From: a virus | Virus record (IMG/VR): IMGVR_UViG_3300021185_000090 | Span: 1-25,813 of that record | Strand: one strand, 5' to 3' | DNA: 25,813 bases | Part shown: piece by piece, positions 92-22,229 of the stretch | How positions within the stretch are numbered: the stretch's first letter is position 1 | Layout: every line of letters starts with the position of its first letter | Program-made: the position numbers and the translations under genes | Notes under the pieces: model-generated | The model's database searches: none | Seen by the model: the letters and a program-made list of their open reading frames with translations, nothing else | What the model was told of the DNA's origin: nothing

Positions 92-453
92 TATTTTTTA
101 CTCCCAAAATATTTACTTACACCACGCATCCCAATTGATGCACTCACAATACCACCAAGGCTGTATTGATACCAATCAGGCATATTAGACAGCGCGGCAA
201 AACCAGCTTGCACAATGCCATTTCCCCAATCGCCACAAAACGCTAAAATTAATGGTATCGAAAAGAGCAGAGTTATCCACTCGTCTTTCCAGCTATTCTC
301 AGTGGCTTTCATGGCGGCAATATCCCAATCGATCTCGCCAGTAGCTATTTTCATTTTTGTTTGGGCTTCAGCCTGCTTCACAGCAGTCTTGCCCTCGATC
401 ATAGTTCCAGCAAGATCTGCAACTTTGCCTAATAATCCTAGTCCAGCTATCAT
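91..453 (-). CDS. Holin-like membrane protein
   Basis: A 120-residue protein with AAAGGAAAAG before the start and an ATGA overlap with the EF-hand gene. After an N-terminal helix it shows NSWKDEWITLLFSIPLILAF (first membrane segment from about residue 60) and a second hydrophobic segment near 97-113 (YSLGGIVSASIGMRGV), ending FGSKK. The SWKDEW/LLFSIP pattern is like the 3TM GTA/phage holin group (Pfam PF11351-like) and similar small tail-end proteins in marine phages. A pore-forming lysis role is plausible; it needs confirmation, as no endolysin gene is seen nearby. Confidence 0.7.
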   Translation of the reverse strand: MIAGLGLLGKVADLAGTMIEGKTAVKQAEAQTKMKIATGEIDWDIAAMKATENSWKDEWITLLFSIPLILAFCGDWGNGIVQAGFAALSNMPDWYQYSLGGIVSASIGMRGVSKYFGSKK

Positions 454-767
454 TTATCTTTTCCTTTCGCTAATGCGTTTGCCCCAAAGAATACAGATAC
501 GATGCCAGCAACAGACACAAAGTAAATGCTTGCCATTGAACCTAATATTTTGGCGGCTTCAATTAATCCAAATACATCTGCTAGAATGACCGCAAAGGGG
601 TATAGGAGCATCCCTGACAGGGCATACCATGTCATTCTGCGTTGTGCATCACGCTGGGCGTCTTCATCCTGCATTCGTAAACGCCTGTCTTCCAGCGCCA
701 TACGATCCCATTCAGCCTGATCAATTGATCCGTTACCATCTACGTCAAATTTTTTAAATTCATCCAT
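450..767 (-). CDS. EF-hand protein with two membrane segments
   Basis: A 105-residue protein with a complete EF-hand loop at residues 8-19 (DVDGNGSIDQAE; ligands D8, D10, N12, S14, D16, E19), a charged helix (about 22-45) and two membrane segments (about 46-68 and 77-99). It would bind calcium on one side of the inner membrane. Similar EF-hand/two-TM proteins are known from marine phages, as I recall, but the role is undefined. The position directly before a holin-like gene suggests a lysis or envelope function, perhaps calcium-controlled; this is inference. Confidence 0.8.
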   Translation of the reverse strand: MDEFKKFDVDGNGSIDQAEWDRMALEDRRLRMQDEDAQRDAQRRMTWYALSGMLLYPFAVILADVFGLIEAAKILGSMASIYFVSVAGIVSVFFGANALAKGKDK

Positions 768-4722: not shown

Positions 4723-5676
4723 TTATGAAGTTGTGCAATCTGCTACCATGCCGTTTGCCGCTTCTGAAGTACATACCAATGTGAGTTCAGTGGTTAATTG
4801 TCTTTTTGAATTATCCCCTGTCTTACTTAGTTCAACATTTTTCATTGGACGTAGAGTAGCCACTTGCCATGTGTCGTTCTGCATTAAGAACACATCACGA
4901 GATCTGTTCTCTCTCGTTGGCCTTAGCGATATTTCGCCCCAAGGGGTTAAATATATGCTGATTGAATTGATAACACGCTCATCAGCGCCAACCACGTTTG
5001 CACGTTGGTTGTTGTTACCAGCAAATCCAAGACATTTTGTCATATTAAATGCTGACAAATATGCAGTCTTTGATCCTGTTCCGCCATTTTCCCAAACGCT
5101 TTGCATCACTGTATCAAACTTAGCTTGAGTGAATACTGTTTGTGTACCATCAGTACGAGCATTTGAACCTGTACCATTAGCATCAGCGCCGCCAGAACCT
5201 TTGACAGTGTTTGATGTTAACCATGTTGGCGCACCAGCAAGCTCACGAGCCGCAGTTGCAGAACCAGTTACTTTAGCATTGTTATCGAAAAGAGCCTTTT
5301 CTATATCAAGTTTCATGGTTTTACCAGCTTTGAGGATTTGATAGCTCATCTCCTTTGCCTTGGCTATTTTTGATAAGCCCTCATCAGTGTCACTGATAAT
5401 TATGGCGTCTTTAAAAATTTGAGTTCTATTGTTCAAACGAGTAACTCCAGAAACCGCAGTTGCAGTTGTGTCATCGCCCTCGATATGAGCATTAGCCGCA
5501 GACGCTCTTAGCGTGTCTGTTGACCATTCATGCAAAGTTGATTTTGCAGTTGTTTTTCTACACGCAGATAAAAATGGAGTTTCGTCTGGTGAAATATTAT
5601 AAATAATATCTTGGATGTCTTCCTTGATACTATTTGCGTTGTCATACGAATCGTATGTATTTGAAGGTTGCGACAT
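4723..5676 (-). CDS. Major capsid protein, SU10-type
   Basis: A 317-residue HK97-fold coat protein of the SU10 major capsid type (Pfam PF17236, formerly DUF5309). The start region NANSIKEDIQDIIYNISPDE then TPFLSACRKTTAKSTLHEWS is diagnostic, followed by TRLNNRTQIFKDAIIISDTD (the strand before the long helix), a Gly/Thr-rich loop at about residues 155-180, and a C-terminal half with EISLRPTRENRSRDVFLMQN then WQVATLRPMKNVELSKTGDN. AAAGGA lies about ten bases before the start. The gene stands slightly apart from its neighbours and is followed by a hairpin, as expected for a highly expressed protein. Confidence 0.93.
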   Translation of the reverse strand: MSQPSNTYDSYDNANSIKEDIQDIIYNISPDETPFLSACRKTTAKSTLHEWSTDTLRASAANAHIEGDDTTATAVSGVTRLNNRTQIFKDAIIISDTDEGLSKIAKAKEMSYQILKAGKTMKLDIEKALFDNNAKVTGSATAARELAGAPTWLTSNTVKGSGGADANGTGSNARTDGTQTVFTQAKFDTVMQSVWENGGTGSKTAYLSAFNMTKCLGFAGNNNQRANVVGADERVINSISIYLTPWGEISLRPTRENRSRDVFLMQNDTWQVATLRPMKNVELSKTGDNSKRQLTTELTLVCTSEAANGMVADCTTS

Positions 5677-6709: not shown

Positions 6710-6949
6710 CTACTTCCTTTGTTTATCAAGAATTAACTCTGCCGATATTGCGGCGTCGAGTGTAATTTCAATTTCATTTAAAGCCCTCACTATTGAATGA
6801 GCTTCCTCACGCACATCTACGTCTGATGCACTACTTTCTGCAAAGATCTTCATTTGATCTTCACGAACATTCTCTACAAATTTCTGAAAAGCAGTATCGT
6901 TTTTTAAACGTCTGGCCTCTTCAGCTTCTAATCTTATAACTTGCGCCAT
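6710..6949 (-). CDS. Small acidic helical protein between portal and scaffold
   Basis: A 79-residue protein beginning MAQVIRLEAEEARRLKND and helical throughout, with no recognised family. It starts in the portal's stop codon overlap and ends five bases before the scaffold start, so it is expressed with both. Position suggests a head-assembly accessory, for example something that helps the portal or scaffold nucleate. That is inference from context alone. Confidence 0.75.
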   Translation of the reverse strand: MAQVIRLEAEEARRLKNDTAFQKFVENVREDQMKIFAESSASDVDVREEAHSIVRALNEIEITLDAAISAELILDKQRK

Positions 6950-9027
6950 TATGACATATTTCCTTGTGCAATGCCACCAATCATGCGGTTTTTATCCTGC
7001 TCTGATTTTACTCTGGCAACGTCAACTCTAGTGCCATATTCGCCATAAATCTTGGCGGCGTCTACAAGTAAATCTTGCGCCATTTGATCGCGTTTCAAGT
7101 CGTCTGCCTGAGCATTCTTCGCCATATCCATTTGCAACTTAGCGGCGTCAGCTTGCATCTTGGCTTGCACTTTCATTTGCTCTGCCTGCAAGAATGCCGC
7201 GTTTGGATCTTGTGGTTGTCCCTGAGCCTCTTGTGCCGCCTGCTGTTGTTGTAGCATTTGCATCTCAATTTCTTCAGTTATTGGAGCAAAATACCTGTCA
7301 GCATTTCGTATTCCTGCAACTGCCAATTGGTCAGCTAATGTATTTCGAATATTGGTCATCGACACTAGACCATTTTGAGCGCCGTAATTTTGGTACACAA
7401 ATTGTTGCATTTGGAGGGCTTGGTTAAGCGCCATTGCTTTTTCCTCTTCCCTGCCAGTTCCTAATCCGACGTTTATCATCACGTCCATTGAGCCATCCCA
7501 GATGCGCGGATCTACAGGCACAAACGAGCCGTTCATTCGCATCATTTGCTCTTCATCAATATTCTTGTGGGTTAGGCGCAACATAAGGCCAAATAGGTCT
7601 TTCATGCCATCCGCAAGGTTTCTCACCATTACTTCGGTTTGACCAGCTCCAGCCTGTATTGTGGCCTGCACAGCCGCTTTAGTTGTAGACTGCATTGCAT
7701 CTGGGTCTAACCCCATAGAGGCTCTGGAGACGCCTGTTTTGCTCTCTACAAGCCCATCTAAGTAAGTTAATGCACTTAATGTCTGCCCAGCGTGGAATGG
7801 CACTGATAAATCTTGAACCTGACCCATTTGTTGCATACGCACGATTGCACCAATTTCGTTATTCAATAAATCATCGATATTAACGCCAGATGTCACTGCC
7901 AGACGCGGATTGTTTGTCATTGCGACGTTATCCAATATGCCTCGTAAAACTGATGTTGCCGCGTCCTGATCATCCATCACTATCTCAGCTAGAGATCTGC
8001 CATAAAAAGTATGTGGCTCTGGATCAATTTCAAATTTAGCAAATGGCACTTCATCGCATGGCTCTAAATCAAGTAATTTATACTTTGTGCCGCCACAAGT
8101 TAATTTGTGTAGGATTGGTATTCCCGTCCCGTCCGCGTCAATTCTCATATATGCTTGGGTAATTGTCACGCTTTTCATTGCTGGATCTGCTGGATCTTCA
8201 TCACTAAAATCAGTGTCGTATCCGCGTCGAGCAAATTCTTCACTTGATGATGTATCGCCGCCGCCCTCAAAGCTGTCTAATCCAAATATCTCATCATGGT
8301 CAAATCCCATTGCAACAACGTCGCCAGCTCTCATCTCAGTTCTGTGAGCTACCAGATATGCATCTTTCATTGTCCTTGCATCTCTGCTTATGAAAAATTC
8401 TTCTGGCGGTACGCTTTCTATACACAATTCACCTTTTTCTTTTTGCAGGCTAATCTTTGCGCTGTGAATAGGCATCTCCATTTCCATGCCTATAGCGTCC
8501 ATTTCAATGACCATTTCCATGCTGTGTTCCAACACTGTCACGTCATCGTCTTCGATCAGGTATGTGTATTCATCGTCAGATAAATCTGTATATGTGAATA
8601 TTTCTGCTTCTGGATATGTCATCCAGTATGCCTTTACGATACCTTGCTTCTTAACAAGTGCATCTTGGAACGCATCATTAATTACGCGATAACCATTTAA
8701 TCTGGTAAATTCGTGGTGCATAAATTCTGTGGCTTGGTCTGCCATAGCCACATCTTCTGCGCCTCGTGGTATATATTCCACTGGCTTTGCAGTGCTTAGG
8801 AAAATACGCATTAAACTTGGCTTAACAGCGCGTACTGTGTCACGCACTTTAGTCGCCACAACGCTACTGCGCCCATCCTCGTGACCTAAGTGAACCTCGC
8901 CATCGTAGTATTCTTGCGCCTTAATTCTATCTTCAGCAATCTCGCCCTCGACAAAAGAAACTGCATCCTCAATGGCATCCGAAACTATACCCTCGATTTC
9001 AATTATAGATTTTGGTTTTAGTTCCAT
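6949..9027 (-). CDS. Portal protein, P22/SU10-like
   Basis: A 692-residue portal, the dodecameric ring through which DNA is packaged and ejected. The N-terminal region has EDRIKAQEYYDGEVHLG, then GRSSVVATKVRDTVRAVKPS and LMRIFLSTAKPVEYIPRG, which is characteristic of P22-type portals in marine podovirus-like phages. The stem/wing region includes EVPFAKFEIDPEPHTFYGRS and the helix LAEIVMDDQDAATSVLRGIL. The C-terminal 100 residues are Gln/Ala-rich helix (from MLQQQQAAQEAQ), matching the helical barrel of P22-type portals. AAGGAAAA precedes the start. The length is near the family norm (about 700). The stop overlaps the next start (TAATG). Confidence 0.93.
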   Translation of the reverse strand: MELKPKSIIEIEGIVSDAIEDAVSFVEGEIAEDRIKAQEYYDGEVHLGHEDGRSSVVATKVRDTVRAVKPSLMRIFLSTAKPVEYIPRGAEDVAMADQATEFMHHEFTRLNGYRVINDAFQDALVKKQGIVKAYWMTYPEAEIFTYTDLSDDEYTYLIEDDDVTVLEHSMEMVIEMDAIGMEMEMPIHSAKISLQKEKGELCIESVPPEEFFISRDARTMKDAYLVAHRTEMRAGDVVAMGFDHDEIFGLDSFEGGGDTSSSEEFARRGYDTDFSDEDPADPAMKSVTITQAYMRIDADGTGIPILHKLTCGGTKYKLLDLEPCDEVPFAKFEIDPEPHTFYGRSLAEIVMDDQDAATSVLRGILDNVAMTNNPRLAVTSGVNIDDLLNNEIGAIVRMQQMGQVQDLSVPFHAGQTLSALTYLDGLVESKTGVSRASMGLDPDAMQSTTKAAVQATIQAGAGQTEVMVRNLADGMKDLFGLMLRLTHKNIDEEQMMRMNGSFVPVDPRIWDGSMDVMINVGLGTGREEEKAMALNQALQMQQFVYQNYGAQNGLVSMTNIRNTLADQLAVAGIRNADRYFAPITEEIEMQMLQQQQAAQEAQGQPQDPNAAFLQAEQMKVQAKMQADAAKLQMDMAKNAQADDLKRDQMAQDLLVDAAKIYGEYGTRVDVARVKSEQDKNRMIGGIAQGNMS

Positions 9028-11224: not shown

Positions 11225-12357
11225 TTATAAATCCACTTTTGCTCTGCTATATTCCATACTTTTTTAACTTTTTCTTCTGGCGCGTCTATTCCATATTTTG
11301 ATTTTAAAGTGTCCATCCTAGCTTCAATCTGTAGCTTATCTTCAAGTTCTCTTATACGTTTATTCATTTCTGGCAACTTAGACATATCAGCCCCACTTTC
11401 CCAGAAATCGTTTATAATTCTAGCTCTAGCAATGTTAAAGTTGTTCTTTTCTATCATAATGCCAACTATAGCTTGATTTGCCTCTTGTGAGTTAGTTAAT
11501 CTACCCAAGCCAGCAATCATACCTTCAAATTCTATATCTGATGTAGAGCCAGAACCTTCAACTCTTAATGTAGGCGCAACTCTTTTTATAATAGATTGCC
11601 TCACTGCGGAATAATCGTTAAATTCTGGGAACATTTCTGCAAATCTTCCCTTAACAGCTCCAGTTGGAGCTTCGCCTGCTAAATCAAATAAAACTTGTAA
11701 ATCATAATTAACTTCAGTCGCTTTAGCACCAGCCTCCATCTGAGCCGCTAATTCCGTACCTTTACCTTTATTTAATGCTTCGAGAAACTTTTGGTTGCCC
11801 TTTTCACCTAAATTTATTGTCGTACCAGATTTAATCTGAGCCAACGCCTCTTCATGGCTCAAACCCTTAGCCCTCATAAACTCATAATTTTTCATTAAGT
11901 TTGTGCTGTTGTCTTTTGGCGCTTTTAATCTGTTTGCCGCAATTGCAGATAATACGTTGCCAGCCGCGCTTGGGTTAGCCTTAATTATCGCCGCCATGTC
12001 AGCCATGCCGTTAGCTTCTAAGTATTCAATTGTCTTGTTAACATCACCAGCTTTTACTCTTTGAGCGCCACGCTCTCTAATAGCCTCACCAGCTCTTAGC
12101 TCTGGTAAAATTACTGCATCTAATGCTTGTGCAAAATTTTCTAGCCCAGATAATCCTGTTGTGCTAGATCTTTGGTTAAGTTTATCAAATAATCCAGCCA
12201 TGCCAGTTCTTGGAGGTTGTTGACCCTGCGTCTGGGTTTGACCACCGCCAGTTACCAAAGGATTAACTGGCTTTTGAATTACCTGTTGCTGTTGCAACGG
12301 GTAGTTTCTTTGCATATTTGTTTCTTCTAGTGGGTTTCTACTTGGAAATCCTATCAT
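11221..12357 (-). CDS. Helical internal virion-type protein (378 aa)
   Basis: The start overlaps the previous gene's stop (TAATG). The first 55 residues are Gln/Pro-rich and disordered. From about residue 58 a helical body begins (GLENFAQALDAVILPELRAG), followed by repeated short helices (TIEYLEANGMADMAAIIKAN), a central region with LFDLAGEAPTGAVKGRFAEM, and a charged C-terminal coiled coil (RIRELEDKLQIEARMDTLKS). There is no signal or membrane segment. Its position between the repetitive protein and the 727-residue protein suggests a component of the ejected internal core. The family is not recognised with confidence. Confidence 0.7.
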   Translation of the reverse strand: MIGFPSRNPLEETNMQRNYPLQQQQVIQKPVNPLVTGGGQTQTQGQQPPRTGMAGLFDKLNQRSSTTGLSGLENFAQALDAVILPELRAGEAIRERGAQRVKAGDVNKTIEYLEANGMADMAAIIKANPSAAGNVLSAIAANRLKAPKDNSTNLMKNYEFMRAKGLSHEEALAQIKSGTTINLGEKGNQKFLEALNKGKGTELAAQMEAGAKATEVNYDLQVLFDLAGEAPTGAVKGRFAEMFPEFNDYSAVRQSIIKRVAPTLRVEGSGSTSDIEFEGMIAGLGRLTNSQEANQAIVGIMIEKNNFNIARARIINDFWESGADMSKLPEMNKRIRELEDKLQIEARMDTLKSKYGIDAPEEKVKKVWNIAEQKWIYK

Positions 12358-13694
12358 TAGCTTCTTGCTCCCATTACATTAGCTCCGAGCTGTAAGTAGT
12401 TGAAAAGGCCAGGTTTCATGCTGTTTATGGTTGTTGATTGGTTGGGTGTTGCGCCCAATGCCGCCAGTGGTGCAGATAGCGCTTGCATTGGTGAACCAGT
12501 GTATCCTGCATATTGAGCCTTAGCCGCATCAATAAGTGCCTGTTGCATTCCCTGCTGTAGAATACCTTGTTGCGCTTGCTGATTTTGGATTGCTTGACCA
12601 GTGCCAAATGCCTGTTGACCTAATGCACCCATTTGATTTGCCGCCTGCAATCTCGCTTGGTTAGCCCCAGCTAATGCATTCTGGTTAGCCACTTGAGCCG
12701 CCATAGCTTGTGTTGCGCCAAACTGATTTGCTTGGTTTTGCGCCGCTTGGTTTGTGAGCGCCATTTGATTAGCGGCGCTTGACCCAAATTGCGCCGCTTG
12801 GTTTTGCGCCGCTTGGTTTGTGAGTGCCATTTGATTAGCCGCACTTGCTCCAAATTGATTTGCTTGGTTTTGAGCCGCTTGATTTGTGAGTGCCATTTGA
12901 TTAGCCGCACTTGAACCAAATTGTGCCGCTTGGTTTTGCGCCGCCATATTTGCCGCCGCCGCTTGATTTGCGGCTGTTGCTCCGAATTGACCAGCCTGAT
13001 TTAGTGCCGCTTGATTTGCTAAGTTTGACTGCTGACCAAATCCAGCAGTAGTTGTGCCAGCCGCTAAATTCGCCTGCTGGTTAGCCAATGCCGCTTGTTG
13101 GGCTGTTCCTATGTCCTGCATAGCCATCTGCTGTGCTTGCGTGTATCCAGCTTGTCTGAGGCCAGATGCAGTTCTTGCCGCCTGATCAGCGAATGCGCGA
13201 TTTGTTTCAGCTTCGGCAATACCCTGACGAGATCCGCCAAACGCATTCGCAGATGTCGCCTGAGCGCCTAATTGGTTTTGCGCCATTAATCTTGATCGCT
13301 CAATGTCTTGTAGTGACTGATTTACAACTTGGCTTTCAAATGGATTTGTGTATGCGCCTAGATTAGTATTTGCTAATTGACCAGCTTGCACGTTTTGAGC
13401 TGTGACTGTCGGAGATTGTCCGATAGTGGACGCCCCGTAATTTGCGCTAGTCATTGCGCTTGGATTGTATCCAGTGGCTGATGCGTTTGCCGCATTATAC
13501 CCAGTAGACTGAGAAATAGAAGGATTGTATCCAGTGGCTGATGCGTTTGCCGCATTGTATGCAGTTGGCCTAATTGCCGCTGGTGCAAAATTCATTGCCT
13601 GCTGAGTGCCTTGCATCGCCTGTTGTAATCCGCCAGCCGCCGCTTGATTTACGTTAAAGCCGCCTTGCGGTCTGATCTGTCCACCACCAGCCAT
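12357..13694 (-). CDS. Ala/Gln/Asn-rich repetitive internal virion protein
   Basis: A 445-residue protein in which Ala, Gln and Asn dominate. The N-terminal third has repeated NAANASATGYNPS blocks. A conserved-looking central part (LGAYTNPFESQVVNQSLQDI, then RSRLMAQNQLGAQATSANAF, GGSRQGIAEAETNRAFADQA) predicts long helices. The C-terminal half is a run of heptad-like NQAAQFGSSAANQMALT repeats, 22 residues each. Such proteins are typically packed in the head of short-tailed phages and ejected with DNA to help it cross the envelope. Position beside two other helical proteins and the portal supports this; no enzymatic motif is visible. Confidence 0.75.
   Translation of the reverse strand: MAGGGQIRPQGGFNVNQAAAGGLQQAMQGTQQAMNFAPAAIRPTAYNAANASATGYNPSISQSTGYNAANASATGYNPSAMTSANYGASTIGQSPTVTAQNVQAGQLANTNLGAYTNPFESQVVNQSLQDIERSRLMAQNQLGAQATSANAFGGSRQGIAEAETNRAFADQAARTASGLRQAGYTQAQQMAMQDIGTAQQAALANQQANLAAGTTTAGFGQQSNLANQAALNQAGQFGATAANQAAAANMAAQNQAAQFGSSAANQMALTNQAAQNQANQFGASAANQMALTNQAAQNQAAQFGSSAANQMALTNQAAQNQANQFGATQAMAAQVANQNALAGANQARLQAANQMGALGQQAFGTGQAIQNQQAQQGILQQGMQQALIDAAKAQYAGYTGSPMQALSAPLAALGATPNQSTTINSMKPGLFNYLQLGANVMGARS
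12734..12931. repeat. 66-bp tandem repeats, three full units
   Basis: Units starting with ggtttgcgcc-like ggttttg at 12734, 12800 and 12866, with a fourth partial copy from 12932. They encode the 22-residue AQNQ/FG(A/S)SAANQMALT repeat of the internal virion protein, alternating AAQFGSS and ANQFGAS forms. Confidence 0.9.
13462..13556. repeat. 60-bp spaced duplicate encoding ATGYNPS blocks
   Basis: The 35 bases beginning ggattgtatccagtggctga occur at 13462 and again at 13522, exactly 60 bases apart, within the N-terminal part of the same internal protein gene. Confidence 0.85.
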
Positions 13695-13695
13695 A

Positions 13696-15213
13696 TTATA
13701 TATCCTTCTTTACTAAGCCAATTACAAAGAATTGCGCTGTCCTTGCCGCAAAATGTATTGCGCCTTTTACTGTGCGTTTCTTACCATTAGCAAATGCGAT
13801 GTAATCTTTAAACTCGCCGTAATGCTCGCGAGCCTTGCCTTGTTCAATTTTCTTTTGACCTAAATATCTGTAGCCACGCCTAATAGCCTCACCCCACCAC
13901 TTGCCATGCAGTACATTCACACACCAAACAATTGCTTCGCGCTTATCTTTGGTAGAGAAGCCCCCAGAATTTACAGCGTGAGTTGCGATAACGCATGACC
14001 CACGATCTGGATCATTTGCTTTGTCATTTTGTGATTTTGCGCTTTCGTTTTGTATTCTCATATCAGCAGGAGCGTTAGCGCTTAATGTGGGCAAACCAGT
14101 GCTTTTGGAAGTCCAATTTCCTGTCGTGCTATTCCAGTATTGATCTCCAGCCCCATCTTTGACTGATTGTGGAATTGCTGTTCTTTCATTTCCAAATCTA
14201 TCGTAGTTCATATTGCGGCCTAAGCCACTCTCGTTAAAGTCGCCATATCCCTCTCCCAACTTGCGTCCACCCGAAACTCCAGATGCAAAAACTTGATCAC
14301 TTATAACGTCCTGAGTATCATACGGCTCATACTTACCAGTTCCAAATACCTTGCTAATAAAACTGTCGTCTTGTCCAGGATTTTGCTGTATGTAAGCAAT
14401 CTCTTCGGGTGTTTTAGCGCTCCCAGCAACCATAGAATTAAAAGCTCCGCTAAATGGCACAAATGGCGGCAACCTTCTGCCATAGGAAAGTGCCTTTTCC
14501 TCATATTCAGCCGCAGTAGGTGCTACAAAACCTTGTCCACCAATACCATCTTCATTATCATTTTTACCCATTCCAGCTAAATCTCCAGTAACAGGCGTAG
14601 GGATCTGAGGCGTACCAAGTATTGGGTCTACATATCCAGAATTTATTCCATAATCTCCAGCGCTTGGCATTCCAGATGTATTCATTGTTGTGCTAGATAC
14701 CTCTGGCTGTGTGTAATATGAGCTATTAGCGCCATAATCTGTAGTATTAACTGCTGGTTGTGCATCCATACTTAAAGGCATTACAGATCCACCAGCACGT
14801 CCTTGAAATTGTGCATATGGATCAAATCCAGCATTAGGATTTACAAAAAAGCTATCAATTAAATTAGCTTGAGCTGGCCTTAAATATCTCAATGTGTCAA
14901 CACTATCTTGGAACATTGGAGCTGATGAATAACCTGTTACACCATCTGCATAAACTGTAGGCGCACCCATGTTGCCCATAATATCTGTCTGACTTGTTGG
15001 TGTAGCCATACCAAATGCATTTGCAGTGTCAGCCGTATTTTGGAATGCCGCCTGTTGCATTGGGTTGAAAGCCGCAACATCTGCGCCGTAATATGGTGTG
15101 TATCCAACACGAGATATTGCGTCTGCCTTTGCTAAATTAGCTTTTGCCGCATTTTCTATGTATTCTGGTACTTTTACTTCTGATGTGGTTGAACCACCCT
15201 TGCCGCCTGACAT
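13696..15213 (-). CDS. Internal virion-type protein with CFI-box-like C-terminal domain
   Basis: A 505-residue protein with AAGGAG upstream of its start. The N-terminal part (STTSEVKVPEYIENAAKANL, then ADAISRVGYTPYYGADVAAFNPMQQAAF) matches the beginning of phage internal or ejection proteins. The middle (about 100-400) is low-complexity, Gly/Asn/Ser-rich and probably flexible. The last 101 residues form a distinct compact domain starting SCVIATHAVNSGGFSTKDKR, with Cys407 in a context like the CFIATAAYG box. It continues WCVNVLHGKWWGEAIRRGYR and a hydrophobic helix near the end (AARTAQFFVIGLV). CFI-box domains are known C-terminal modules of unclear, possibly processing, function. The role here is inference. 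Confidence 0.75.
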   Translation of the reverse strand: MSGGKGGSTTSEVKVPEYIENAAKANLAKADAISRVGYTPYYGADVAAFNPMQQAAFQNTADTANAFGMATPTSQTDIMGNMGAPTVYADGVTGYSSAPMFQDSVDTLRYLRPAQANLIDSFFVNPNAGFDPYAQFQGRAGGSVMPLSMDAQPAVNTTDYGANSSYYTQPEVSSTTMNTSGMPSAGDYGINSGYVDPILGTPQIPTPVTGDLAGMGKNDNEDGIGGQGFVAPTAAEYEEKALSYGRRLPPFVPFSGAFNSMVAGSAKTPEEIAYIQQNPGQDDSFISKVFGTGKYEPYDTQDVISDQVFASGVSGGRKLGEGYGDFNESGLGRNMNYDRFGNERTAIPQSVKDGAGDQYWNSTTGNWTSKSTGLPTLSANAPADMRIQNESAKSQNDKANDPDRGSCVIATHAVNSGGFSTKDKREAIVWCVNVLHGKWWGEAIRRGYRYLGQKKIEQGKAREHYGEFKDYIAFANGKKRTVKGAIHFAARTAQFFVIGLVKKDI

Positions 15214-15581: not shown

Positions 15582-15940
15582 GAACCACCTGTCAATGTTA
15601 CGCGCTTCCAAATGTGAGCTGACCCATCGTGAGCCGCAGTGCATACATAAATATATGATGCATCCCAAGATATTAATCCAGCCTTATCGCCAGCTACACC
15701 CACACTAGATGCAGGGATTGCATTCTTTAATATAATTTCACGAAAAGCGCCTGATCTACTTATAATTGGGTATAGGTTTACCCTGTCCCACATAAGAGTT
15801 GCATCGTCAGATGCGTTTTCTTCGCCGTTCTGTTGAACCAATGCGGATCGAGTTTGTGATAAGTGCTGAACAAGCCTTCGACCCCACGTCCGCCAATCGT
15901 TGCCGATAACGTCTGGGGCTTTTTGTGGCTGTTCGCTCAT
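15575..15940 (-). CDS. Small tail-associated protein with Trp/Tyr-rich C-terminus
   Basis: A 121-residue protein overlapping the nozzle gene by four bases (ATGA). An N-terminal helical region (WRTWGRRLVQHLSQTRSAL) is followed by a beta region and a C-terminal motif DKAGLISWDASYIYVCTAAH ending in IWKRVTLTGGSW. This last motif is a short domain seen at the ends of many tail or fibre proteins in marine phages and is probably a beta-sheet module exposed on the virion. There is no enzymatic signature. Its location between nozzle and GNAT-like genes supports a tail role. Confidence 0.7.
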   Translation of the reverse strand: MSEQPQKAPDVIGNDWRTWGRRLVQHLSQTRSALVQQNGEENASDDATLMWDRVNLYPIISRSGAFREIILKNAIPASSVGVAGDKAGLISWDASYIYVCTAAHDGSAHIWKRVTLTGGSW

Positions 15941-17418
15941 CTCGCCCCACCAGCCGTAACATTAAGTCTATTTATACCAACACGCCAATCACCTAATGAA
16001 TTTGCGTCTATTCTTAATTTAACTTGCCTGCCCGTAAATCGCAGAGATGTTGGATTAGACATTGAAAATGCGCCATAGGAGCGTTCAGTTCCATTTGGAT
16101 AGAACCTTGTCTTGAATGTGACTGTCACGTCGCCCTGCGTCTTTTCATCTGGGATCATTTCTGTTACTGACATTACGCTCTCGCCAGTGCCTAGCGCAAT
16201 TGAACCGCTTTCAGCAAATGGTGTAAGTGAGCCATAATCAAATCCGATTTCATGCTCGTATAACTTGTTGTTTTCTGCGCTTGCCCATATTGGTTGTCGA
16301 TATGTACCCATATCATAACCAGCAGTTCTGCCTAGTTCGCCAATATACCAAGTATTCTCAACATAATTATAAACGCAATATCTGTCATTTTCTACAGATG
16401 ATCCAGATGGATAGAACCAGAATATCTCGCCGTATGTGCTGTTAGTCACTGCAAAAGTTTTTGATATTTGCGCTCGGTTTATATCTGAAAAGACATAATC
16501 TGATATTTCGCTTTCAATTTGCTGTACTGCGCCGCCTGCGTATGCATAGAATGAGTGATTACCCATCCAGAATGCACCTTTATCAACTGATGCTATGGCT
16601 TTGTTTGCAATTAATCCGCAACTAGCTCCAACACGCTCGATGCCATAAACATATGGCGCTCCAATGTAATTGGCTACATGGGCGTCCATGCTTGTTAATA
16701 TTAAAGTTTGGCCTTGCACTCGTATGCCAGCCATAATTCTGCCGCTTGTGTTTAGCTCTAAATCACCAGCTTCATTTGTTGCGGCTGGCGTCCATGTGGA
16801 GCTATCTTCCCTGTCACACCATTGCACCTTACGTTGATTTCCGCCAGCGCCTAATGCGAACAAAAATCGCTCCTCAGTCACAACGATGCTTTCATTGCTT
16901 GTCGGTGCATTTGCTAACACTGCGGCTGGTGTAGAGTTATTTATTTGCCACTCGTAAATTTTTCCATCATCTTCATTGCACGCAACAAGGTATTCACCCC
17001 AAGTATCTAGTGACCAAGTTGTTGCAGGCTGTATTCGCGCTGTATCTGGGCGAGCTACGCCGTAGGCATATTGACCAAAATAACTACCGCCATATCCTGT
17101 AAATGCCTCGGCGTCTTCACGGCCACTAACTAACCCTGTTGGCGTTATGTCGTGGCGAACACCCTGAGATGTCCAAGTATAAAGTTTATTATATGTTCCG
17201 CCAGCTATAAACCTGTCTTGGTTATTCCCAATCCAAGTAATTAATCCACGAATTTTAGCATTAGCCGCCGTGTCTGATCGAGTGCGCCAACCACCCATTG
17301 GACGCATCGTACCATCTACCCATCGGATTAGGTTAGCATCGCGCCATCGACCAGATGATTGCAATTCAGTGCCGTTGCGGTAAATGCCAGCAGGGATGTC
17401 TAGTGGTATTAGTGGCAT
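15937..17418 (-). CDS. Tail nozzle / gp10-like head completion protein
   Basis: A 493-residue beta-rich protein beginning MPLIPLDIPAGIYRNGTELQ and followed by GRWRDANLIRWVDGTMRPMGGW, the signature start of P22 gp10-like packaged-DNA stabilisation or nozzle proteins common in marine and SU10-type phages. Repeated blade-like motifs follow (RFIAGGTYNKLYTWT, EYLVACNEDDGKIYEW, YCVYNYVENTWYIGEL), consistent with a beta-propeller. It would plug or extend the tail below the adaptor. GAGG lies eight bases before the start. Its stop overlaps the next gene's start by four bases. Confidence 0.85.
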   Translation of the reverse strand: MPLIPLDIPAGIYRNGTELQSSGRWRDANLIRWVDGTMRPMGGWRTRSDTAANAKIRGLITWIGNNQDRFIAGGTYNKLYTWTSQGVRHDITPTGLVSGREDAEAFTGYGGSYFGQYAYGVARPDTARIQPATTWSLDTWGEYLVACNEDDGKIYEWQINNSTPAAVLANAPTSNESIVVTEERFLFALGAGGNQRKVQWCDREDSSTWTPAATNEAGDLELNTSGRIMAGIRVQGQTLILTSMDAHVANYIGAPYVYGIERVGASCGLIANKAIASVDKGAFWMGNHSFYAYAGGAVQQIESEISDYVFSDINRAQISKTFAVTNSTYGEIFWFYPSGSSVENDRYCVYNYVENTWYIGELGRTAGYDMGTYRQPIWASAENNKLYEHEIGFDYGSLTPFAESGSIALGTGESVMSVTEMIPDEKTQGDVTVTFKTRFYPNGTERSYGAFSMSNPTSLRFTGRQVKLRIDANSLGDWRVGINRLNVTAGGAR

Positions 17419-17483: not shown

Positions 17484-17873
17484 TTATGTGGGTTGCGTAG
17501 GCCAAGTAACTGAATTTGGAAATCCCGATTGCTGTGGTAAGTTTAGCAAATCAATTCTATACTGCGTCCACTCTGCTTGCTTGTCGTTTGTTAATTCACC
17601 CCATCGTATAGGGTTTGTAATTAAAGGATCTACATCATTAACGAGTAAAAAATGGCGCTCTTGCCTAATTTTAAATTCTTTATTTTGTTGAATTATTTCT
17701 TGGTCTTCAACTATAGTCAAATCACTTATTCTTACTTTATGTGTATATATGTCGTAATTTGTTTCAGAATTTATTATAGCTAATTCATCGCTTCCATTTG
17801 TTGAAATGGCATCAGCACTATCACAATTGCTATCAATTTTTCCTGTAGATTTATTATATAGATAATAATACAT
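17484..17873 (-). CDS. Tail fibre assembly chaperone-like protein
   Basis: A 129-residue protein directly after the tail fibre gene. The C-terminal half has the recognisable pattern IRQERHFLLVNDVDPL, then LTNDKQAEWTQYRIDLLNLPQQSGFP and a terminal WPTQPT, typical of the phage tail assembly chaperone family (Pfam PF16778-like), whose members help fibres fold or trimerise. The N-terminal half is beta-rich and variable, as usual. AAGGA lies about nine bases upstream of the start, inside an AT-rich spacer. Similarity by eye is strong in the C-terminal part. Confidence 0.8.
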   Translation of the reverse strand: MYYYLYNKSTGKIDSNCDSADAISTNGSDELAIINSETNYDIYTHKVRISDLTIVEDQEIIQQNKEFKIRQERHFLLVNDVDPLITNPIRWGELTNDKQAEWTQYRIDLLNLPQQSGFPNSVTWPTQPT

Positions 17874-17897: not shown

Positions 17898-19406
17898 TTA
17901 GGATATTTTAACCCATCTCATGTAAGAATTAGATCTATAGGTGCTTACAGTTAATGACCCACCTGATGCGATTGACACTACACCCGAAACATATTCTGTC
18001 TCATTTGAATAACCACTACAAATTGCACCGCTATGTATAGTTCCGTTACTAGAATACGCCGAACCTAACACACCAGTTATCCCCGAACCGCCCATTGTTG
18101 CGCTAAAATTATAATTTGGACTATTACTAGATACTTGATGGGCAATTAAATAAACACCAGAGCTACTTATATTTCCAGTGCCATTTGCCGAAGCTGTAAA
18201 TAGATTTCCTAAACCCCCACCACTAACTTCTGCCCAAGTTAAACCGCCAGTATTTCCTGACTGCGCTGAAAGATAATACCCATTAGTTGGGCTATTAGAA
18301 ACTTTAAGATTAGCTTCATCGACCACGTTATTAGCTATCGTTAATGATGTAGATCCTGTAACCTCACCTGTATGTGTTAGGTTAGTGTTAGTTACTGTTT
18401 CTGCGGCTGTAGCTAGTCCAGTGACGTGTCCGTAAGTATCAAGAGTAATATCTTGGATATATGTCCTGCCAGAGTTATTTGATGAGCCTTGAGATGATGT
18501 GTCGCTGTGACTTAAAGTTACATTACCAGTTCCGCCGCCCGATAGACCAGAACCAGCAGTAATTGTTTGATCATCTTTAGCTGATGTTTCAATTCCATCT
18601 AACTTGCTTTTAAGTGTAGTAGTAAAGTTTTTTTGTGTAAGACCGCCATCTCCTACGCTGTAGGTTGTGTTTGTATCTGTTGGCGTAGCCCATGTAAATG
18701 TACCATCACCATCAGAACGTAAAAACTGCGTGTTACTGCCATTACCTGTTACCTTCAAGTTGCCTGCATCAACAACATTATCTGCTATAGTTAAAGCTCC
18801 AGACCCTGTTACTTCGCCTGTATGAGTAGCATTATTTGATGAGCTTGTGCCTGCACCTATTAAGGAACGAACCTCAGATGCTGATATACCAGAAGCGAGT
18901 GAAGGTGCTGAACCATTTGTTGTTATTGCAGGGTCTGCGGTATTAGTAGCGCTTGCCTCAATCCCATCTAGTTTAGTATGGTCTGCATTTGTAAAATTTT
19001 GATCTGGTAATTCTGAAGCATTTGCTAATTCAACCCAACTACCATTATGGGCATAATAACCCTTACCAGTGGCATGAACGTGAGCAAACATGCCGTGATA
19101 AGTTGAAGCTGATGGAAGGTCATTTGTTGTTGCATACATATTGCCAAATAAAACTTTATTGCCATTTGCATTTATATCGCCTGATGTTGCTACAGTTGTA
19201 AATGAACCTGTAGACGCAGAGTTTGCACCAATTGGCGTTCCATCAATTGATCCAGAATTAATATCAATACCAGTAACAGGCGTCGTACCATCTAACAGAT
19301 TATCGACGTTATCTAGGTTGGTATTTATTTTTGTACCCCAAGTATCCTCGGACGCACCGACTTCTGGTTTTACCAAGCCATATGTGGTTGTTGTAGTATC
19401 TGCCAT
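17898..19406 (-). CDS. Tail fibre protein
   Basis: A 502-residue fibre likely to contact the host surface. The N-terminus ([20 protein letters not shown], then [13 protein letters not shown]) is the common virion-attachment start of short-tailed phage fibres. The middle has triple-stranded-fibre type modules: [13 protein letters not shown], then two related blocks [20 protein letters not shown] (about residues 190-210) and [20 protein letters not shown] (about 345-365), each followed by NLKV. The C-terminal 110 residues are Gly/Ser-rich beta and end in [13 protein letters not shown], probably the receptor-binding tip. AGGAGC precedes the start. The downstream gene is its probable chaperone. 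Confidence 0.9.
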
Positions 19407-19438: not shown

Positions 19439-19518
19439 TATCGTTCATCAATGTAAGAGAAAGACGCAGTAGGCGCTGATCGCATACTGCCACAAAAATG
19501 CTTTAATTGCAACATCAT
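19435..19518 (-). CDS. 27-residue micro-protein coupled to the tail gene
   Basis: A short frame whose first ATG (19518-19516) overlaps the stop of the 568-residue tail gene as ATGA; a second ATG follows at once. It ends with TAG at 19437-19435. The peptide begins MMLQLKHFCGSMRSAPTA and ends SYIDERY. Its stop lies within a small hairpin directly before the ribosome site of the next tail-fibre gene. Start/stop coupling identical to neighbouring true genes, and full use of an otherwise empty 108-base gap, support translation. The function is unknown; a tail accessory peptide is possible but unproven. Confidence 0.5.
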   Translation of the reverse strand: MMLQLKHFCGSMRSAPTASFSYIDERY

Positions 19519-21221
19519 GCGGCTGTCCATATTTCTGTTACTTTTGGTACTGTCTGCCATGTTTCTGTTGCGTCTGGTAAGTCTTCCCATTTCTCAACTG
19601 CACTAGCTGTAAATGCAGATGTAATGCCTATTGTTGAAATAGCTGATTTTCTAATAGACGCACTTGTAAACACATTTAATTCACAATTTATTATACTGCT
19701 ACCCACTACTGTTCTTGCTCCAATTGCAGAAACTGACAACAGTAATGGAATGTTGACCGCAGTGTTTTGCAATCTAACAAAACTTATTGAACCGCTTGAA
19801 GTTGTAGATATAGCAGAGCCAGATTGATGTATTTTTAATCCAGATGCAGTTGCCGTTGAGCTGGCGGAAGTTGTTGAAGAACCTAGTAATATTTTTTCAG
19901 CAGAAGGCGCAACTGTAAGATTTGCTGGTAATGTTGCGGATGTTTGCTGTATTAATTCAGCGCTTGAAACTACAGAAGAAATGGTTGCTGTTATTGAAGA
20001 CGCTACTCGAACACGCTTTCCTGCTGATGCAGTAGATGAAATTGTTGAAACAGATATTGCAGAACCACGAACACGATTAAATCCAACGCCTGTTACAGTT
20101 GTCGTCGATATGTTTGAGCTGTTGTTAAACTCTACATTCGGAACAGTAGATAACGATAAATTTGTATTAACTGTAGAGCTATCATTTTGCACTCTATTTG
20201 CAGTAGTTGTAGAAGATAGGTTTGCGGATATTAAACAACTGCTTGTTCTATCTCTATCTGCATCTGCCGACGTTGATAAAATTGTAGATATAGCAGAGCC
20301 AGATTGATGTATTTTTAATCCAGAAGATGTAACGCTAGATGTCGCTGATACTGTAGCGGATGCATTTTGCTTTCGTATGCATGAAGCACTAACGCTAGAT
20401 GTCGCTGATACTGTAGCAGATGCATTTTGCTTTCGTATGCATGAAGCACTAACGCTAGATGTCGCTGATACTGTAGCGGATGCATTTTGCTCTCGTATGC
20501 ATGAGGCACTAACGCTTAAAGTGCAATCAATGAATGCTGACGTGCTTTCAGCAACAATAAAATTCACATTTAATGAAGATGTCGCTGATACTGTAGCGGA
20601 TGCATTTTGCTCTCGTATGCATGAGGCACTAACACTAGATGTCGCTGATACTGTAGCGGATGCAAGGCGTTTTCTTATACATGAGGCACTAACACTAGAT
20701 GTCGCTGATACTGTAGCGGATGCATTTTGCTCTCGTATGCATGAGGCACTAACACTAGATGTCGCTGATACTGTAGCGGATGCAAGGCGTTTTCTTATAC
20801 ATGAGGCACTAACACTAGATGTCGCTGATACTGTAGCGGATGCCAGACGTTTTCTTATACATGAAGCGCTAACGCTAGATGTCGCTGATATTGTAGAAGA
20901 AACATTCCTAGTTCTTGCCGCTTCAGAGACAACAGCAGAGACAGTTGCAACAGATATGCTTGAACCACGCACACGATTAAATCCAACGCCTGTTACAGTT
21001 GTGGATTGAGATGTGGCGCTTCCGCCTATAATATTGTTTGGCGTTGTGGCTACGCTTGATGTGGCTGATACTGTTGCTGTGCCACGCGCAGTTATATTCC
21101 CAGCCACAGAAACACTTGCGGCTGGTGAAATTGTTATTGAGGCGTCTTTGACTGATCCATCAAAACCGAATGTATGTTCGCCATATAGACTGTAGCCGTA
21201 GCCGCCTCGGTAAACTGTCAT
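19515..21221 (-). CDS. Tail protein made of about 26 strict 20-residue repeats
   Basis: A 568-residue protein rich in Ser, Ala, Thr and Val. After a short N-terminal segment with GGYGYSLYGEHTFGFDG (residues 6-22) it follows a 20-residue period from about residue 21 to 540 without any insertion or deletion. The consensus is roughly R-x2-S-S-x-V/I-x-A-x3-S-V followed by variable positions. Residues 115-300 are almost identical repeats carrying CIRKRL, CIREQN or CIRKQN at the variable spot, giving cysteines at 20-residue spacing. The C-terminus (about 542-568) is different, with Trp-containing EKWEDLPDATETWQ. The pattern suggests a beta-solenoid or fibrous shaft. Neighbours are tail genes, so a tail fibre or spike role is likely; no enzyme motif is seen. 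Confidence 0.85.
   Translation of the reverse strand: MTVYRGGYGYSLYGEHTFGFDGSVKDASITISPAASVSVAGNITARGTATVSATSSVATTPNNIIGGSATSQSTTVTGVGFNRVRGSSISVATVSAVVSEAARTRNVSSTISATSSVSASCIRKRLASATVSATSSVSASCIRKRLASATVSATSSVSASCIREQNASATVSATSSVSASCIRKRLASATVSATSSVSASCIREQNASATVSATSSLNVNFIVAESTSAFIDCTLSVSASCIREQNASATVSATSSVSASCIRKQNASATVSATSSVSASCIRKQNASATVSATSSVTSSGLKIHQSGSAISTILSTSADADRDRTSSCLISANLSSTTTANRVQNDSSTVNTNLSLSTVPNVEFNNSSNISTTTVTGVGFNRVRGSAISVSTISSTASAGKRVRVASSITATISSVVSSAELIQQTSATLPANLTVAPSAEKILLGSSTTSASSTATASGLKIHQSGSAISTTSSGSISFVRLQNTAVNIPLLLSVSAIGARTVVGSSIINCELNVFTSASIRKSAISTIGITSAFTASAVEKWEDLPDATETWQTVPKVTEIWTAA
19802..19844. repeat. 43-bp exact duplicate (copy 1), partner at 20282-20324
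   Basis: The 43 bases are identical in both places and lie exactly 480 bases (eight 60-base units) apart, encoding the same SGLKIHQSGSAIST segment twice. Flanking units differ, so this looks like transfer of a single unit between in-register positions in the tail protein gene. Confidence 0.9.
20062..20102. repeat. 41-bp near-exact duplicate (copy 1), partner at 20962-21002
   Basis: The 41 bases match the partner with one mismatch (position 20070 a, 20970 c). The copies are exactly 900 bases (fifteen 60-base units) apart and both encode TVTGVGFNRVRGS, so register is preserved over a long distance. Confidence 0.9.
20282..20324. repeat. 43-bp exact duplicate (copy 2), partner at 19802-19844
   Basis: Second copy of the segment described at 19802. 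It borders the homogenised 60-bp array directly. Confidence 0.9.
20341..20880. repeat. 60-bp tandem repeats, nine units in two main types
   Basis: Each 60-base unit starts with gtcgctgatactgtagcgga and ends in actagat or a close variant. Eight units are near-identical, and the fourth (20521-20580) is a diverged unit of the same length. The middle of the unit is either attttgctctcgtatgc-like or aaggcgttttcttatac-like. These forms alternate between 20581 and 20880, which suggests copying in pairs or gene conversion. The array is entirely coding and encodes the homogenised core of the 568-residue tail protein. Confidence 0.95.
20962..21002. repeat. 41-bp near-exact duplicate (copy 2), partner at 20062-20102
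   Basis: Second copy of the segment described at 20062, near the N-terminal end of the tail protein. Confidence 0.9.
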
Positions 21222-21226
21222 TTAAT

Positions 21227-21607
21227 TTACTCTAAAGTAATATCTAAATCACCAGCAGGGATGCGGAATACGTCGCCTGTAGCAATAGCTTTAGACGCAG
21301 ACAATGCCGCATATGCAATTAAGTTGCCGCCTGTTGTCGCATCAAATACTCCAACGTGCGTTACTGTTCCATAGCCTGCAGTGGCTGTGGGGTATTCAAC
21401 AGCGCCAGAATTAGTAGCTGTGTTACCAGATACAGAAAATGTTACAGCCTGACGGGCATAACCACCGCCAGATACTTCAGTACCGCCGCCAGTATCACTT
21501 GGTGCGCCTGTATATAATGCAACACGCCATGTTGTCGGCCTTGTTACAGATGATGTAGTAAACACATAGTTTAATACTCTTGTTTCAAATTCATTAGAAA
21601 AACTCAT
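21227..21607 (-). CDS. Small tail-fibre-type beta protein
   Basis: A 126-residue protein with the widespread phage tail pattern of an N-terminal helix (FSNEFETRVLNYVF), then RVALYTGAPSDTGGGTEVSGGGYARQAVTF, VTHVGVFDATTGGNLIAYAAL and a terminal GDVFRIPAGDLDITLE. Proteins of this kind occur singly or as domains beside tail-fibre genes and are predicted to be beta-sandwiches that decorate the tail or bind receptors. AAGGGC lies 8-10 bases upstream of the start. It sits five bases from the repeat-rich tail protein, with which it probably shares function. Recognition is good; the exact location in the virion is unknown. Confidence 0.8.
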   Translation of the reverse strand: MSFSNEFETRVLNYVFTTSSVTRPTTWRVALYTGAPSDTGGGTEVSGGGYARQAVTFSVSGNTATNSGAVEYPTATAGYGTVTHVGVFDATTGGNLIAYAALSASKAIATGDVFRIPAGDLDITLE

Positions 21608-21608
21608 T

Positions 21609-22229
21609 TTAATATGCCCTTATTTTTAAACGACGACCAGAGCCGCCGTATTTAGTTTGATCGCTGACAGCGTTTATAGCGTCAACAGCGCTTTGATACA
21701 AAGCCGCCCAAGTAGTAATTCGAGCGTCTTCTTTTAAATATGGGGCTGAGTGTACCAAAGCTCCATATAAATAAGCATCTGGATATTCGCCCAGAAGCCA
21801 ATTGGTTGTATTACTGTCAGATAATGCGGGAATTTTCTGATAGTAATATAATTCAGCATCGTAAACGCCATCTGGCGCTGGATGCACTTGTAACTCGCCA
21901 GCAGTCATTGCGTAGTATCTTGGATGGCCTGACACGTTGCCAGCTCTTCGCTGTCTGTCTAGCAATTCCGCCTGCGATATTAATTCTAATGGGTTTGTCT
22001 CGCCACTCGTAATATGAAATCGAATAGGCTCTAAAAGATCCGCAGGGATCGCGCTGTATTTTGTGTCAATCTCAGCAGTGGATCTAGTTTCCATTTTCCA
22101 GTGGCGTAACTTGCGATTTAAGTCAGCCTCGGCTAAACTTATGAATGTACTAGACACAGATGTAAGATCATCACGATTTAAAAAATCTGCGAGTGTCGTC
22201 TTTAATTCTGCGTATGTTGTTATTGGCAT
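21609..22229 (-). CDS. Head-tail adaptor, SU10-like
   Basis: A 206-residue protein that probably forms the ring beneath the portal, joining head to tail nozzle. The N-terminal half is helical with the pattern YAELKTTLADFLNRDDLTS then FISLAEADLNRKLRHW, typical of the phage adaptor family found beside SU10-type and other short-tailed phage tails. The C-terminal half includes beta strands (AELYYYQKIPAL) followed by helices ending in a basic tail (SGRRLKIRAY). AGGGG lies upstream of the start. The 74-base spacer before it is one of the longest non-coding gaps in the window. The family call rests on pattern recognition, not on a search. Confidence 0.8.
   Translation of the reverse strand: MPITTYAELKTTLADFLNRDDLTSVSSTFISLAEADLNRKLRHWKMETRSTAEIDTKYSAIPADLLEPIRFHITSGETNPLELISQAELLDRQRRAGNVSGHPRYYAMTAGELQVHPAPDGVYDAELYYYQKIPALSDSNTTNWLLGEYPDAYLYGALVHSAPYLKEDARITTWAALYQSAVDAINAVSDQTKYGGSGRRLKIRAY

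Follow-up and report, generated by a model that had tools for sequence, protein, structure and literature searches.

The viral genome recorded in IMG/VR as IMGVR_UViG_3300021185_000090 (positions 1 to 25,813, the 25,813-nucleotide stretch analysed here and called the window below) encodes a 568-residue protein composed almost entirely of 20-residue units, which raises the question of what such a protein does and whether it is peculiar to this virus. An initial annotation, made from the letters alone, had described it as a tail protein with a strict 20-residue period, suggestive of a solenoid or fibre with one turn per 20 residues, for which it could offer no named repeat family.

The 20-residue register and its genomic setting

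The repeat gene and its parts are located as follows.

19515..21221, minus strand: 20-residue-repeat, tail-associated protein of 568 aa (complete ORF, stop included; lag-20 periodicity; relatives with quantised lengths)
21162..21221, minus strand: N-terminal segment, residues 1-20 (MTVYRGGYGYSLYGEHTFGF), near-invariant in close relatives; putative virion anchor, by inference
19602..21161, minus strand: residues 21-540, made up of 26 repeat units of 20 aa each; putative beta-solenoid arm (register, consensus core, AlphaFold2 strands)
19518..19601, minus strand: Trp tail, residues 541-568, with W545, W555 and W565 at 10-residue spacing; proposed fibre dock by analogy with SU10 gp17
20330..20896, minus strand: 60-bp DNA tandem array of recently copied, near-identical units (Tandem Repeats Finder, 9.4 copies)

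When the whole 568-residue protein was matched against itself, identity reached 38% at lag 20 and 34% at lag 40, with 16% at the next-best lag. Between about residues 41 and 320, almost all 80-residue stretches had 20 and 40 as their top two lags. Beyond residue ~320, single 80-residue stretches are noisy for lag; across residues 301-540 taken together, with near-identical copies excluded, lag 20 still came out on top and exceeded 2,000 of 2,000 shuffles over all lags (p ~5e-4). Residues 21-110, too short a stretch when taken alone, displayed no significant 20-residue period (p 0.30; shuffles), and among the 24 other ORFs of the window none had lag 20 as its top lag and none was significant. 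The register claimed for residues 21-540, comprising 26 units with no indel and maintained despite sequence divergence, thus holds in this self-comparison. Its repeat count also stands, but it had overlooked the 10-residue Trp repeat at the C-terminus (residues 541-568).

At the DNA level, the 60-bp tandem array is confined to its 20330-20896 interval within the repeat gene, where adjacent units reach 58/60 bp identity, and it is much shorter in relatives. Outside this array neighbouring units are mostly alike in 2-9 of 20 residues, and the register is nonetheless kept. A plus-strand ORF inside the repeat gene (20377-21009, 210 aa) was considered as a gene and rejected: its Pfam match to DUF807 contains no stretch that passes alone, and the frame is open because the 60-bp period keeps frames open, as a by-product of the repeat.

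The surrounding genes identify the window, on Pfam matches to an SU10-type portal, major capsid protein and adaptor, as an SU10-like podovirus.

6949..9027, minus strand: SU10-type portal protein, lineage marker (PF23899, E = 1e-183)
4723..5676, minus strand: SU10-type major capsid protein, lineage marker (PF17236, E = 1.3e-78)
21609..22229, minus strand: SU10-type adaptor protein (PF24175, E = 1.8e-37)
21227..21607, minus strand: GP4 gp80-like collar protein (PF23140, E = 2.4e-41; profile match to PDB 8jou_a, E = 3.5e-23)
17898..19406, minus strand: tail fibre with conserved N-terminus, proposed partner of the repeat protein (phrog_9729 tail fiber, E = 2.9e-16)
17484..17873, minus strand: tail fibre assembly chaperone (PF16778, E = 1.2e-9; phrog_4628)
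15937..17418, minus strand: nozzle protein (phrog_3287, E = 9.5e-90; PDB matches 9nwi, 8zkm and 8zkk)

Along transcription the order is adaptor, gp80-like collar, repeat protein, tail fibre, fibre chaperone and nozzle. The gp80 homologue adjoins the repeat gene, as expected of a GP4 gp80 collar module, and this context, with the repeat gene lying between the collar homologue and a tail fibre, agrees with the earlier designation as a tail protein.

Three other genes of the window merit mention in their own right. At 12357-13694 (minus strand) lies a second repetitive protein (445 aa, 66/132-bp DNA repeat) made of 22-residue Ala/Gln/Asn-rich units with lags 22 and 44 and no PHROG match. The adjacent 505-residue protein (13696-15213, minus strand) resembles a DNA ejection protein at its N-terminus (weak phrog_4287), and its last 110 residues are Cys/Trp-rich and look like a separate fused domain. 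Finally, a 105-residue protein (450-767, minus strand) begins with an EF-hand-like motif, DVDGNGSIDQAEWDR, followed by membrane-like segments.

A widespread family that varies in length by whole units

Searches of Pfam and NCBIfam returned nothing above the curated cut-offs for the window protein, and the PDB gave no significant match to queries with the sequence, a family profile or the predicted fold. The one PHROG hit, family 31951 of unknown function, covers only the repeats (7.9e-8). These results agree with the initial annotation, which could match the unit to no named repeat family. Across 37 diverse family members, 0/37 matched a PHROG at E <= 0.001, and against Pfam there was one weak family match. 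A tblastn search of INPHARED with the window protein and a scan of genome contigs returned no relative, and the open-access literature yielded nothing on this 20-residue repeat as a phage tail repeat.

Relatives were instead reached through the neighbouring collar gene, which was the sole route to those in INPHARED. Viral contigs were searched with a gp80 alignment, the best 80 gp80 matches were taken, and the next ORF was examined; this sample is biased, with many near copies, and 39 remain at <85% similarity. Among these best matches, the ORF after gp80 was a 20-residue-repeat protein in 70/77 contigs, a count that includes a few with a related 10- or 40-residue periodicity and close relatives of periodic proteins. 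In most members the N-terminus is of YG type and the protein ends in a Trp tail. The next gene was a fibre with the N-terminus of the window fibre or a close form of it (WGxxxN-type) in 51/64 complete cases, and a nozzle in 11/64 (9 by script, 2 by eye in translations). The window protein itself combines the three marks by which we define the family, namely a significant 20-residue period, a place after gp80, and Trp residues at 10-residue spacing.

Among sequenced phages, the ORF after gp80 had a significant 20-residue period in ctjtQ328, C72C1, MEP401, ct2t2046, vB_OspP_OH, BcepIL02, POI1126 and PBC5, the last three being phages nearer to GP4. The period was weak or absent in phiM5, CRP-4, CRP-5, BcepMigl and Itty13, and the ORF after gp80 displayed no significant 20-residue period in DB2, ctvy9321, ctXG6705, PVJ1 and Lietuvens. 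The proteins of MEP401 (gp59, from a Methylophilales phage), C72C1 (gene 8) and ctjtQ328 (UOF82909) resemble the window protein in their place after gp80, significant 20-residue repeats and C-terminal Trp motifs, but have fewer units (~7-10), and the Trp spacing of MEP401 gp59 is ~13 rather than 10. BcepIL02 gp56, BcepMigl gp57 and their relatives, which follow the closest homologues of GP4 gp80, likewise sit directly after that gene with a detectable 20-residue period; unlike the window protein they have no Trp-decapeptide tail, and here and there their period lengthens to 22. The case for homology between these Burkholderia-type proteins and the marine ones is one of position and period, not of sequence. 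Taken together, sequence comparison places the window protein in a widespread family that carries no name in the libraries searched, and it is no isolated oddity.

Close relatives reveal how these proteins change in length. Ahead of the EKW motif, 11 complete IMG/VR relatives have exactly 12, 18, 19, 20 or 25 units, against 26 in the window protein. Because these counts are always whole numbers, the repeat regions differ in length by multiples of 20 residues, which supports the register independently. Two relatives of 558 and 278 aa are seemingly off by ten because the number of C-terminal Trp decapeptides differs (4 and 2 Trp, versus 3). Residues 1-20 are near-invariant in these relatives, and a YG-type N-terminus is found in most of the wider family. 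Length thus evolves by whole units, with both ends conserved and the middle units variable.

The survey also returned some unusual arrangements. One member (L170:4402-5508, plus strand) has a second YG-type segment mid-protein (GYGSYVYGVGVYD), as though the protein were a fusion of two arms. A clade of contigs (L140, L144, L156, L158, L164, L166, L169-L172 and L175) has mostly two Trp residues and a nozzle gene directly after the repeat gene. In L214 and L216, the gp80 homologues belong to phages of Gram-positive hosts and are located after a baseplate J gene, and no significant 20-residue-repeat protein follows them.

Predicted fold and the tryptophan tail

From ~400 weighted units we derived the 20-position consensus S V T A S A x R V R x G S A T I S A T S, in which hydrophobic residues occupy positions 2, 9 and 16. 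Their spacing of 7, 7 and 6 fits a three-sided coil. AlphaFold2 predicted a solenoid-like fold for the window protein, with three short strands per unit, at a mean pLDDT of 52; values of ~70-83 were restricted to the near-identical units (residues 130-300), and one diverse family member reached 54. Since near-identical repeats can flatter such models, the solenoid fold is likely rather than proven. In Foldseek, no solved structure matched significantly, and three uncharacterised or unnamed viral models matched at E <= 0.001. The initial suggestion of a solenoid or fibre with one turn per 20 residues is therefore matched by the model, one coil per 20 residues, but without high confidence or a significant structural counterpart. 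We consider a predicted beta-solenoid with one coil per 20 residues to be likely.

Right-handed beta-helix adhesins of the filamentous hemagglutinin type have ~20 residues per coil, a coil size like the unit of the window protein, and solenoids are common among adhesins in general. The non-significant Foldseek matches to solved structures were mostly solenoids as well (S-layer RsaA, tapirin, hemagglutinin-type). These Foldseek matches and the prevalence of solenoids among adhesins would suit a decoration of the tail or collar, an adhesin-like surface solenoid that binds the host surface or particles and carries no fibre. We regard this as quite improbable, as it explains neither the strict 10-residue Trp tail nor why a fibre with one N-terminal motif is constantly encoded downstream. 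In Pfam the window protein matched neither DUF2807 nor filamentous hemagglutinin-type families; Venkman gp51 matches DUF2807 weakly, below the Pfam cut-off.

The model could alternatively be read as that of a homotrimeric tail fibre, in which three intertwined chains would form one shaft layer per unit and the Trp tail would be the receptor-binding tip. Strands rich in S, T, A and V with an alternating pattern are known from trimeric shafts, low monomer confidence in AlphaFold2 is usual for obligate trimers, and the tail-gene neighbourhood would be the expected one. Nonetheless, the genes immediately downstream encode a separate, dedicated fibre and a chaperone for its assembly, in an order that recurs in the family, and the core pattern fits a single-chain three-sided coil. 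In close relatives, moreover, it is the C-terminal end that is conserved and the middle units that vary, the opposite of a host-range tip. On balance a homotrimeric fibre appears unlikely.

The C-terminal Trp tail has a parallel in SU10, which shares the portal and capsid type of the window virus. There, W839, W847 and W857 in a loop of the gp17 nozzle form a star that holds the trimeric short tail fibre, with one fibre chain packed against each Trp (PMC9509320). The sequences of this dock loop (IWSDFQEITWDDPSIKELVW) and of the window tail (EKWEDLPDATETWQTVPKVTEIW) are alike: both have three Trp at 8-10 spacing with acidic residues and proline between them, and W545, W555 and W565 fit the pattern of an SU10-type dock. 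The two differ in setting, the SU10 dock being a loop inside the nozzle protein whereas the candidate dock of the window is the C-terminus of the repeat protein, and the window nozzle is a different protein from SU10 gp17 and much shorter (493 vs ~1005 aa). Across the family, the Trp spacing is exactly 10 in 168/169 instances. The number per tail is not always three: 22 proteins have 2, 18 have 6, 13 have 4, 9 have 3, and 1 has a single Trp. With members holding 2, 3, 4 or 6, a strict three-Trp star is not valid for every member, and we rejected a strict rule of one Trp per fibre chain, which the tails with 2, 4 or 6 contradict. As the three-Trp rule fails in some members, we class the Trp tail as working like the SU10 dock rather than as a member of that class.

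A proposed tail arm

Since the repeat gene lies between genes for a collar protein and a fibre, an arm joining both is the most economical reading of the locus, and a location of the protein between collar and fibre is likely. The N-terminal YG segment would anchor, as we infer, at a collar built of the gp80-like protein and the adaptor. The 26 units would form a narrow three-sided beta-solenoid, a rod of ~12 nm if the rise is ~4.8 A per coil, and W545, W555 and W565 would capture the trimeric product of the fibre gene that follows, possibly with each Trp packing on one fibre chain as in the SU10 nozzle dock loop; the docking step is proposed by analogy. Recombination may add or remove whole 60-bp units, so that under this proposal arm length would change while the fold stays unbroken. 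We give this complete scheme, in which a collar-anchored beta-solenoid arm captures the fibre of the next gene with its Trp tail, about an even chance.

A possibly comparable connection is described for GP4, where a dimeric fibril links the adhesin to the gp80 collar (PDB 8JOU; PMC13243795). The window has the collar homologue and a gene where such a connector would be expected, but no solved chain matches its repeat protein. A profile of the Burkholderia-type proteins, run against the PDB in search of the 8JOU fibril, gave no credible match, and the small protein encoded after them matches 8jou_D.

Evidence on presence in the virion points both ways. BcepIL02 gp56 and BcepMigl gp57 are annotated as virion-associated, which favours an arm. 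Conversely, the virion proteome of JC1 included the neighbours of JC1 gp54 but not gp54 itself (PMC9144972), and phiM5_18 lacks the proteome note that its neighbours carry. The same two observations would suit a non-virion protein, that is, a repeat ORF of low complexity that lies in the tail operon but serves a non-structural role; this is very improbable given the position, length quantisation and ends conserved over many phages, and the virion-associated annotations of the two Burkholderia phage proteins. Also weighing against the arm are the clade in which a nozzle gene, not a fibre gene, adjoins the repeat gene, the low overall confidence of both AlphaFold2 models, the absence of a significant solved counterpart in Foldseek, the variable number of Trp residues, and the placement of the SU10 dock in a nozzle loop. 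Set beside the known systems, the repeat protein is still most likely a beta-solenoid tail arm carrying a fibre, in a family without a library name.

More tentatively, and with some doubt, these proteins may represent a new class of tail part in many marine podophages: a quantised, length-tunable solenoid arm whose decapeptide Trp array offers interchangeable trimeric fibres a universal socket. The number of units would then set reach, and the number of Trp residues would set how fibres are held. For annotation, a gene after gp80 with 20-residue units and Trp every 10 residues offers a marker for products that are now mostly called "hypothetical". A rod whose length comes in exact units would be a natural test of the role of tail reach in infection, and a fixed Trp socket, if real, would explain fibre exchange between phages. 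The proposed arm, if correct, would account for the way in which host-binding fibres are attached in many uncultured marine short-tailed phages.
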